From assembly GCA_014874475.1 (NCBI GenBank), contig JADBJJ010000021.1:47850-80505 (forward strand): a stretch of DNA of 32,656 nt, in the 5' to 3' direction. Each line of letters begins with the position of its first letter. Position 1 is the stretch's first letter. Position numbers and translations under genes: made by a program. The notes beneath the pieces are model-generated. The model did no database searches. It saw only the letters and a program-made list of their open reading frames with translations, and had not been told where the DNA came from. The stretch comes from Chloroflexota bacterium. GTDB lineage: Bacteria; Chloroflexota; Anaerolineae; B4-G1; DUEL01. Shown piece after piece: positions 1,393-3,947 of the stretch.

Positions 1393-2139
1393 CTATGGGG
1401 GCACGATGTAGACCTCCCGCCGGTACGGCTTCACCTGCTCCGCTACCTGCTCCTTCAGAATGTGCCCGGAGACGTGCATCAGCGTGTCGTTGAAGTCCGG
1501 GTCCTGGACCATCCCCGCCAGGCAGGGGTAATGGTGATGGAGCATTCCGGCCTGGAACTCTGCCTCGTCCACAGAAACCCCCACCAGCCCCTGAGCCACA
1601 AAGCGCGCACACCCGCAGACGGAATCCCGAATCACCTCTATTTCTGCGATAGTGCGGGTCTTCGGGTCCACGGTGATCCGCAGTTCCGGTCTCCCGAAGT
1701 GCTGGGCAAATTCGGCAATGGTAGGATCGTCGTACTCCGTCCGGTAGCGACGGATGTTATAGGCCGTCTCAGTCAGGGAGCAGAGGGGCTTGGGGGTGAC
1801 GCAGGCGACGCCCATCTCCGCCAGCCAGCCGCGTAACTGGCGCGCCAGCCCTCTCGGCAGCCACTCCTCTCGGTCTACCGGCGCGATGACGGCCCGCGCG
1901 CCGGTCCGCTTCACCACCTCCGGCACCAACTCCGCCCCCCCTGGATGCTCCCCGAAGGCCAGCACCAGGTCCACAGGGGGCAGGTCGTCGGGGACGTAGT
2001 CCTCCGGATAGTCAATGACCGGCGGGTAGGACGCCGGCGCCTTCCAGACGTGAATCTCCCAGTCCGCGGGCGCATGGGCGCGAATGTTCTCCACGTGCCG
2101 CTGGCCGTATTCGCCGGTGATGATGGCCAGGATGCGCAT
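1393..2139 (-). CDS. DUF166 / COG1810 family protein
   Basis: A 248-residue cytoplasmic protein of the uncharacterised DUF166 family, which I know mainly from methanogenic archaea and some anaerobic bacteria. The chosen start (2139) gives M-R-I-L-A-I-I-T-G and has AGGAGG five bases upstream; the reading frame stays open further upstream without a better ribosome site. The N-terminal half resembles a nucleotide-binding alpha/beta fold. Conserved-looking cysteines lie at 113, 120, 175, 177 (C-G-C-A-R) and 206 next to a triple histidine at 201-203, suggesting a bound metal or Fe-S cluster. The family has no assigned reaction; older database notes of thymidylate synthase resemblance should not be taken as function. 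It lies 221 nt downstream of the PAS chimera and may have its own promoter. Confidence 0.8.
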   Translation of the reverse strand: MRILAIITGEYGQRHVENIRAHAPADWEIHVWKAPASYPPVIDYPEDYVPDDLPPVDLVLAFGEHPGGAELVPEVVKRTGARAVIAPVDREEWLPRGLARQLRGWLAEMGVACVTPKPLCSLTETAYNIRRYRTEYDDPTIAEFAQHFGRPELRITVDPKTRTIAEIEVIRDSVCGCARFVAQGLVGVSVDEAEFQAGMLHHHYPCLAGMVQDPDFNDTLMHVSGHILKEQVAEQVKPYRREVYIVPP

Positions 2140-2360
2140 AAGGTCCTCCTGAAGGTTATGTTGCATGTTGTGTAAAACGTCGGGCAGGAAGTGCTTGACT
2201 TTTCCTGTATTCGCTGACAATGCGGACTTCGCTGATGCTTACCAGGGCGCCTGGATGCTGGCGCAGGCGTCCATACAATGCACTTTTACTGCGGGCCCTT
2301 CTGCCGCTTGCCGGGCATTGCGGTTTTCCAACCGGCGTCGCGCGATTCTCTTGCCGCCCC

Positions 2361-2804
2361 CTACGCGGCGTCATCCAGCAGCCTCCGCTCTCCTTCCAGC
2401 GCGCGGATGTCCGTGACGTCCTGCACGACCTCCAGTGTCCCCCGATACTCCCCCTTTTCGTCCCGCAGCGGGAAGTAGCGGATGTGGATGAAGCGTCCCT
2501 GCATCGGAAGCCAGAACTCCGCCACGTCCCGCCGCCCGGCCCGGAAGTCGTCCAGGATACGCTGGACCCGGTGCAGGCTGGCGGGCGGGTGACACTTCTG
2601 CACTTTGCGCCCGATGGCCGCCGTGGGCCGCAGGAAGGTCCGCTCCCGGGGTTTGTTGAAGTAGCGGACGGTGTCCTCCGCGTCCACGTAGGTGATCTCC
2701 ACCGACCCGTCTTTCGGCAACAGGCGGTCCAGGTGGAGCGCGGTGTAGAGGCCGGCGAAGCCAGCGCCCAGAATCAGGATGTGAGGACTCTGCTTCTCGG
2801 TCAT
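2361..2804 (-). CDS. chimeric protein: NADH dehydrogenase N-terminus joined to a PAS domain
   Basis: A 147-residue protein made of two unrelated pieces. Residues 1-36 read like the first beta-alpha unit of a type II NADH dehydrogenase (FAD-binding G-A-G-F-A-G at 13-18, then T-A-L-H-L-D-R-L-L-P). From about residue 37 the sequence is instead a PAS domain of the type at the C-terminus of DUF438/hemerythrin proteins: Y-V-D-A-E-D, V-R-Y-F-N-K, I-G-R-K-V-Q-K-C-H-P-P, a basic R-R-D-V-A-E-F-W strand and an ending with T-L-E-V-V-Q-D-V-T. The remaining Rossmann fold and NADH domain are absent, so it cannot be a dehydrogenase. The start overlaps the methyltransferase stop by ATGA, so translation is coupled. 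The PAS part could still sense a ligand or redox state. A deletion fusion in the genome or an assembly join are both possible. Confidence 0.72.
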   Translation of the reverse strand: MTEKQSPHILILGAGFAGLYTALHLDRLLPKDGSVEITYVDAEDTVRYFNKPRERTFLRPTAAIGRKVQKCHPPASLHRVQRILDDFRAGRRDVAEFWLPMQGRFIHIRYFPLRDEKGEYRGTLEVVQDVTDIRALEGERRLLDDAA

Positions 2805-3556
2805 TCTCGGGTCGCTACCACCACCAGATTCGGGCTTCGGTCGGGGTCAAAGGGCGCGCCCTGCATGTTGCCGTAGAGGGTGATGGCCGTAAACCCTGCC
2901 TCTGTCAGCGCACCGGTCAATTCTCCCCGCCGTAGGGGCCACAGGCGAGTAGAGAGAGCCCGCTGTTCCCACGGTCCGCCCGCGCGGTAGAGCCGGACGA
3001 TGTTGAAGGTGAGCAGGCCGTCGGGGTCAAAGTCATAGAAGCGCAGGAAAAGCCATTCCTGCTCTCCTTCCCGATAGGCCTGGGGCTCCATCCACCGCTC
3101 CCGGCGGGCCAGAATCCGATCGTAGTTGAGGTTCTGGACCATCAGGACGCCGCCGGGTCGCAGGCAGGCGGCGAAATCGGCCAGAGCGATGCACAGGGCC
3201 GGTGGCGTCAGGATGTGGGGCAGGGAATTGCCCAGGCAAAGGAGCCCGTCAAACCCCGCGCCGAGATGGGCGTGGAGTTCGCCGAATCCCGCGACCTCAA
3301 AGCGGACCTCCACCCCGGCAGCCCGCGCGTTGGCCCGGGCGCGGGCGATCATCTCGGGGCTCAGGTCAGTGCCCGCCACCTGCCAGCCCCGCCGAGCCAG
3401 CGCCACCGCGTGCATCCCGGTCCCGCAGGCAGCATCCAGAACGTGGCGCGGGCCTTCGGCCTGGGATACAACGCGCTCAATGAACGGTAATTCCATCGCC
3501 AGGCGGGCGGGCCAGTCCACGAAGCGGTCGTAGTCGGTGCTGAAGGCGTCGTACAT
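2801..3556 (-). CDS. class I SAM-dependent methyltransferase
   Basis: A 251-residue cytoplasmic Rossmann methyltransferase. Motif I is V-L-D-A-A-C-G-T-G at about residues 39-47, the acidic motif II region is A-G-T-D-L-S-P at about 61-67, and the post-motif region L-R-P-G-G-V-L lies near 132-138. This matches the Methyltransf_11/25 group, whose members act on many small molecules, so the substrate cannot be told. The start at 3556 has only a weak AAGGAA ribosome site. The 3' end overlaps the start of the PAS chimera by four bases, indicating one transcript. The gene lies 67 nt downstream of the MoaD-like gene and is probably in the same operon. Confidence 0.85.
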   Translation of the reverse strand: MYDAFSTDYDRFVDWPARLAMELPFIERVVSQAEGPRHVLDAACGTGMHAVALARRGWQVAGTDLSPEMIARARANARAAGVEVRFEVAGFGELHAHLGAGFDGLLCLGNSLPHILTPPALCIALADFAACLRPGGVLMVQNLNYDRILARRERWMEPQAYREGEQEWLFLRFYDFDPDGLLTFNIVRLYRAGGPWEQRALSTRLWPLRRGELTGALTEAGFTAITLYGNMQGAPFDPDRSPNLVVVATRE

Positions 3557-3623: not shown

Positions 3624-3947
3624 TCACACTACCAGCATGGCCATATCCCGCCCAAAGAGGCCCAACCGGTCGCCGTCGCAGAGGGGATGGTCCAGGTTGG
3701 GCTCGCAGGTGGGGACATCTTCCCGCACTCGCTGGTAGCGGAGCCAGGGGGCCATAGAGTTGCAGGTGGTCAGGAGCCGACCATTGAGGAAAATGTGGGC
3801 GATCTCCGTCTGGGGGATGCCCAGCCGCGCCAGTACATCCCCGACGGTCTTCCCGGGCTTCGCCTCCAGGCGGACTATCGCCTCCCGGTCGCCGCGCGGG
3901 TCAGGCCCGAAGCGGCGCAGTTTGCCATACAGTCGGACTTCTATCAT
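3624..3947 (-). CDS. MoaD/ThiS-like beta-grasp protein lacking the C-terminal Gly-Gly
   Basis: A 107-residue protein with the beta-grasp pattern of small sulfur carriers: N-terminal strand M-I-E-V-R-L-Y-G-K-L, a T-V-G-D-V-L-A-R-L-G helix at 34-43, I-F-L-N-G-R at 52-57, and D-G-D-R-L-G-L-F near the end. True MoaD, ThiS and CysO proteins end in Gly-Gly, the residue pair that is adenylated and thiocarboxylated. This one ends R-D-M-A-M-L-V-V, so it cannot be activated in the usual way unless trimmed. It also has an insert between residues 60 and 90. The ribosome site GGAG is seven bases before the ATG. An E1-like enzyme lies 3 kb away in the cysteine operon. It may be a structural or regulatory ubiquitin-like protein rather than a sulfur donor. 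Confidence 0.75.
   Translation of the reverse strand: MIEVRLYGKLRRFGPDPRGDREAIVRLEAKPGKTVGDVLARLGIPQTEIAHIFLNGRLLTTCNSMAPWLRYQRVREDVPTCEPNLDHPLCDGDRLGLFGRDMAMLVV

Follow-up and report, generated by a model that had tools for sequence, protein, structure and literature searches.

Introduction

Proteins in which a PAS_10 domain follows a DUF438 and a hemerythrin (HHE) domain, type 2 NADH dehydrogenases (NDH-2) and small stand-alone PAS_10 proteins are the described systems closest to the gene analysed here, and the fusion of two genes through a deletion between short direct repeats is a known kind of event. The gene lies in a 32,656-nucleotide stretch of DNA from a Chloroflexota bacterium (the window; assembly GCA_014874475.1, contig JADBJJ010000021.1; G000:C25:47850-80505 in our numbering, where G000 is the source bin). 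Its PAS part is like that of the DUF438-HHE-PAS_10 proteins (PF0695, 3cax), both in sequence (E 2.9e-31) and in structure (Foldseek E 5.2e-14), and PAS_10 is C-terminal in both, but the fused protein lacks DUF438 and HHE. Of NDH-2 it retains the start site and the 34–37 N-terminal residues, among them the GAGFAG motif, but not the remaining enzyme, which exceeds 400 residues in the copy on a second contig of the bin, C28.

Materials and methods

The G000 bin has 32 contigs (completeness 97.71, contamination 1.34), and G002–G005 are its genus mates. Relatives of the gene were sought at E ≤1e-5 in 41 genomes, G000 among them (23/41 with a match), and at E ≤1e-10 in 48 genomes of the order, G000 included (28/48 with a match); 27 of the 47 other order genomes, many of which are incomplete, matched at the latter threshold. 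A wider contig search gave 111 loci encoding a relative, and 80 were retained for analysis; frame lengths are unreliable for four of these, L164 (wrong frame) and L125, L154 and L158 (off the contig start). For synteny, nine relatives' stretches were fetched, six of which hold the PAS part. Literature searches, checked at listing level, returned no publication on the locus itself.

Results

A sequence-only reading of the window had proposed, without giving a strand, a chimera of a truncated NADH dehydrogenase start and a PAS domain. The open reading frame exists, on the minus strand (Table 1), and by homology its two parental parts are certain. In Pfam, PAS_10 (PF13596) covers residues 33–131 (E 1.1e-28). 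The Pyr_redox_2 match at residues 8–55 is weak (E 0.0016, under the curated cutoff) and spans just profile positions 2–44 of 291; the complete Pyr_redox_2 fold, the NDH2 C-terminal domain, DUF438 and hemerythrin were all absent from the frame in the Pfam search. Residues 1–43 match the starts of ndh genes in G004 (74%; 445-aa frame) and G003 (79%; 435-aa frame), and residues 34–144/146 match the ends of 427–459-aa frames in G002–G005.

Table 1. Features at the chimeric gene, in window coordinates.
Feature	Coordinates	Strand	Basis
Chimeric ORF, 147 aa, NDH-2 N-terminus + PAS_10	2361..2804	-	ORF list, Pfam; own-genome match C25:50213-50653
ndh-derived part, codons 1-37 with the 10-bp match	2695..2804	-	C28 1-59 vs window 2753..2695, 58/59; relatives' ndh starts
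10-bp shared sequence CGGTGGAGAT at the join	2695..2704	-	In C28 ndh (C28 50-59) and the DUF438-PAS genes of G004 and G003
PAS_10 domain, formerly the C-terminus of a DUF438-hemerythrin-PAS gene	2361..2704	-	86-94% identity to genus-mate frame ends
SAM methyltransferase (MT), ATGA overlap with chimeric ORF	2801..3556	-	Pfam; neighbour and overlap shared with G004
Ubiquitin-like (Ub-Mut7C/ThiS-type) protein (UBL), conserved left neighbour	3624..3947	-	Pfam, synteny
DUF166 protein, conserved to the right of the PAS gene	1393..2139	-	Pfam, synteny in relatives
Spacer, ~220 bp, PAS stop to DUF166	2140..2360	.	Single copy in G000

The ATGA overlap with the upstream neighbour, which the same reading had pointed out, is real: the ATG of the chimeric frame overlaps the MT stop, and the arrangement is identical in G004. 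In G003 the same overlap would result from an in-frame ATG located four codons upstream, and in G005 the distance from MT to ndh is ~0.65 kb. On the other side, DUF166 comes next after the PAS part in 6/6 relatives' stretches that hold this part, with 10–87 bp separating it from the PAS match in six relatives versus ~220 bp from the PAS stop in G000. We considered a repeat element in this spacer and rejected it, the sequence being single copy in the bin.

The parents also change over where that reading had placed the switch. The 10 bases CGGTGGAGAT at 2704..2695, codons 34–37, fit both parents, with ndh before them and the PAS gene after them (C28 ndh, GGGTCGGTGGAGATTACG; G004 PAS gene, CTGCCGGTGGAGATCACC; window, GGGTCGGTGGAGATCACC). 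On the ndh side, GGGTC is common to the window and C28 and occurs in 0/5 relatives aligned. The PAS-side parent of G000 itself is missing from the assembly; with the PAS genes of G004 and G003 standing in for it, the 10 bases are found at both parental breakpoints, and one copy is left at the join. Such matches are common between these genes, with 22 (G004) and 25 (G003) shared 10-mer positions between the C28 ndh and the DUF438 gene, against means of ~8 in a codon-shuffled control (200 copies), so that CGGTGGAGAT is equally compatible with a deletion and with an assembly slip. The microhomology deletion proposed earlier has its short repeat, but the shared 10 bases alone are no proof of mechanism.

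Relatives hold the two parents as separate, intact genes. In G004, a single contig carries UBL, MT, full-length ndh, an AhpC-like gene, a gene for a 439-aa membrane protein, DUF438-HHE-PAS and DUF166; in G007, again on one contig, the order is UBL, MT, ndh, a small ORF, cupredoxin, oxidase, the 439-aa gene, DUF438-HHE-PAS and DUF166. In G003 and G005, ndh and DUF438-HHE-PAS stand in the same setting on two contigs each, with the break inside a gene. An intact ndh followed by a separate PAS gene at this locus in relatives had been named beforehand as evidence against a chimera; such relatives do occur, and what they give is the ancestral state and a deletion of ~6.3 kb. The oxidase is missing at this locus in G004 and G003, and among seven genus genomes the C28-type oxidase is found only in G000 and G005. 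No MT match was obtained in G006 or G001, where the DUF166 matches are partial (in G006, at the contig start). If the relatives' bins are right, the respiratory cluster often changes and loses pieces. In the G002 stretch (L041 350-1180) the same cluster has eroded in a different way, as ndh is lacking from the interval that separates MT and AhpC and the 439-aa gene is reduced to its C-terminal part; we count this loss of other pieces in favour of a deletion.

Most of the DNA missing from the window is present in the same bin. Contig C28 (5,952 bp) begins, at its left end, at the base of window 2753, is identical to the window at 58/59 positions up to the join (60/62 with the next three bases), and then continues through the ndh remainder, a small ORF, a cupredoxin-type subunit II gene, a COX1-family gene, an AhpC-like gene, the 439-aa membrane protein gene and DUF438 with part of the hemerythrin domain. 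The C28 ndh matches both Pyr_redox_2 and the NDH2 C-terminal domain in Pfam. When the G004 DUF438 protein was used as query, C28 matched residues 1–159, where the contig ends, and C25 matched residues 310–421, where the PAS part starts; the missing length is therefore about 5,893 + 453, or ~6.3 kb, of which C28 carries ~5.9 kb (~93%) and little else. The ~450 bp between the C28 end and the PAS part are in no G000 contig, which weighs against a deletion with an intact second allele, and the range of residues 159–310 is matched in the bin by just a 32% hemerythrin paralogue (C25) and a 26% match (C1). No second copy of the C28 ndh or oxidase was found in G000, and a paralogous second ndh was rejected on this ground.

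C28 fits this species, since its dS to G004 (ndh 0.453, DUF438 0.548) is like that of the window DUF166 (0.489; PAS part 0.233) and since an intergenic TTTCACG-type repeat on it (L006 5405-5472) recurs on C22 and C14 of G000. The contig also encodes a COX1-family protein (L006 1863-3479), with the cupredoxin subunit II gene upstream. HPEVY is the usual copper-histidine motif; this oxidase has DMVADGNV in its place. In Table A4 of PMC8756737, the active-site residue of gNOR is D. Judged from these residues, the C28 protein is perhaps a divergent nitric oxide reductase, with an equivalence of the D residue that alignment does not fix.

We consider it probable that the main strain of the bin carries a recent deletion of ~6.3 kb and that C28 derives from the intact allele. 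The alternative that deserves most attention, an assembly mis-join at the 10-bp match in which all cells are intact and C28 is the skipped piece, is in our judgement unlikely. In its favour, C28 holds nearly all of the missing DNA with little besides, the bin is a many-contig draft, scaffolders are able to use short overlaps, and an ordinary graph fork is absent at the C28 left end. Among contig-end pairs with 15 or more bases in common, 17/30 share exactly 77 (C13 left out), an overlap that presumably points to a SPAdes-type assembler; C28 and C25 share only 41 exact bases, which rejects an ordinary k=77 fork, and the point at which C28 starts is not fully explained, a further count against the deletion reading.

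Against a mis-join, C25 and C28 should then agree at all 59 bases leading up to the join, yet one differs. This single mismatch is an A/G difference 18 bases before the join and is synonymous, in an AAA/AAG lysine codon that reads AAA in G004 and AAG in the other four relatives aligned. With such a difference, C25 and C28 are not expected to come from one haplotype, although one mismatch in 59 bases could be a sequencing error. The window contains no N. In addition, the bin holds a second structural alternative with mismatches: both ends of contig C29 (L207; 5,596 bp) fall within C19:57938-58215 (L211), with 76 exact bases per side and, on one of them, 3 differences among 107 bases; the 5.4 kb of C29 correspond to 95 bases in C19. 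The mismatch in the overlap, together with this pair, favours two alleles over a mis-join. By reading of the sequence, C29 carries genes for an IclR regulator and a branched-chain ABC transporter, and the 95 bases of C19 include an apparent truncated transposase start.

The sequence-only reading had also suggested searching with each part separately and looking for the same fusion in relatives. No match spanning both parts was found in the 47 other genomes of the order, and the only match covering residues 1–147 among the 48 is that of G000 to itself. The other PAS matches in these genomes begin at residue 17 or later of the query and lie in frames of 408–542 aa, except in G015 (261 aa), G031 (342 aa), G023 (138 aa) and G039 (148 aa); six of them contain one in-frame stop. 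Matches to residues 1–43 or 7–43 sit in full ndh frames.

The wider set of 80 loci gave the same picture. Some loci align from residues 1–6 on, yet within long frames, and the majority are of DUF438-HHE-PAS size, as judged by frame length only. Short closed PAS_10 frames make up 9/80 loci and have no GxGxxG motif upstream of the PAS part. A search with residues 1–40 placed the ndh leader in 4/80 loci, and in none of the 80 within 1.5 kb of the PAS part; the distances are 2.2 kb (L116), 4.3 kb (L113), 6.9 kb (L118) and, for a marginal match (E 0.049), 3.6 kb (L122). As the leader is always at least 2.2 kb from the PAS part in these loci, the fusion is seen nowhere else. With G004 and G007 intact and no match to both parts in the 47 other genomes of the order, a new fusion gene shared across the lineage was rejected.

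We then compared the product with its relatives. An AlphaFold2 model built from 32 sequences (mean pLDDT 77.9) has a confident PAS core, with ten-residue means of 76–95 from residue 41 on and values below 50 at residues 1–20. Among structures, the best matches come from PF0695 (3cax) and from the C-terminal domain of SMU_1151c (2qkp). The dN/dS of the PAS part is 0.106–0.197 against six relatives, compared with 0.05–0.19 among those relatives, and no relaxed selection is seen. Against the two closest relatives it is 0.11–0.12, versus 0.07 between those two; DUF166 rises likewise (0.10–0.12 versus 0.06), so the increase is not special to the PAS part. The dS of the PAS part to G004 is below that of the other genes; this and the absence of decay count against the deletion reading. 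In this comparison of sequences, its dN/dS fits a recent event or no event.

Of the two outcomes offered earlier, a recent deletion and a novel small sensor, the deletion is better supported, and of the sensor there is only an open, foldable frame. Most likely, the 147-aa product, a free PAS domain that has lost its hemerythrin and DUF438 partners, is a relic. That the fusion might instead be expressed from the ndh start signals and work as a free PAS protein seems improbable to us. Such a sensor would accord with a frame that is kept through the join together with its start and ATGA overlap, with a PAS part that is predicted to fold and has no sign of decay, and with the short closed PAS_10 frames elsewhere, which in the order are those of G039 and G023 (the latter containing one in-frame stop, as scored by the search tool). 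It is opposed by the lack of a both-part match in the other order genomes and of an ndh leader near the PAS part in the 80 loci, by the low pLDDT of residues 1–20, by the presence of most of the intact cluster in the same bin, and by the one-in-three chance of staying in frame. A version in which both alleles are kept within one natural population, the free PAS protein under ndh signals and the intact cluster each being useful at different oxygen or nitric oxide levels, would have a slightly smaller chance still. Finally, it is hardly credible that C28 is a relocated duplicate of the cluster elsewhere on the same chromosome, such that one cell would have the greater part of a working cluster besides the scar: fusion and C28 do share one bin, and ndh lies on a different contig away from the locus in G012, but C28 starts within the stretch retained in the fusion and ends near the other breakpoint, as a moved copy need not.

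Discussion

The chimera is true in sequence. We explain it as the scar of a deletion or, with lower probability, as a mis-join; as biology it is ordinary. For the deletion that we favour, the probable route would be slippage or end-joining between the short direct repeats. The main strain would thereby have lost the interior from ndh through cupredoxin, haem-copper oxidase, the AhpC-like gene and the membrane protein gene to DUF438/hemerythrin, presumably with its function, and the first 34–37 ndh codons would now read, with the frame preserved, into the part of the DUF438 gene that encodes PAS_10. The sample would also contain an intact allele, probably that of another strain, with its interior binned as C28. 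The leftover product, if made, would fold as a PAS domain on its own behind a flexible leader.

Since C28, from the same bin, holds most of the missing DNA, the fusion can represent no more than one of two alleles. What is taken for a 'new chimeric gene' in binned DNA can thus be a single structural allele, with the other present as a short contig alongside, and the remaining contigs of a bin should be screened for the lost segment before novelty is claimed for a fusion. Should the deletion be real in the cells, the loss of a respiratory cluster has been caught within one population.

The locus resembles known gene-fusing deletions between repeats in its short repeat, its intact relatives and the single repeat copy left behind; it differs in that the event is seen in a single draft bin, which also retains most of the deleted DNA. 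Stand-alone PAS_10 proteins have similar lengths, with frames of 137–146 aa (L153, L176 and L184), but their N-termini lack GxGxxG, whereas the fused protein has an ndh leader and arose separately.
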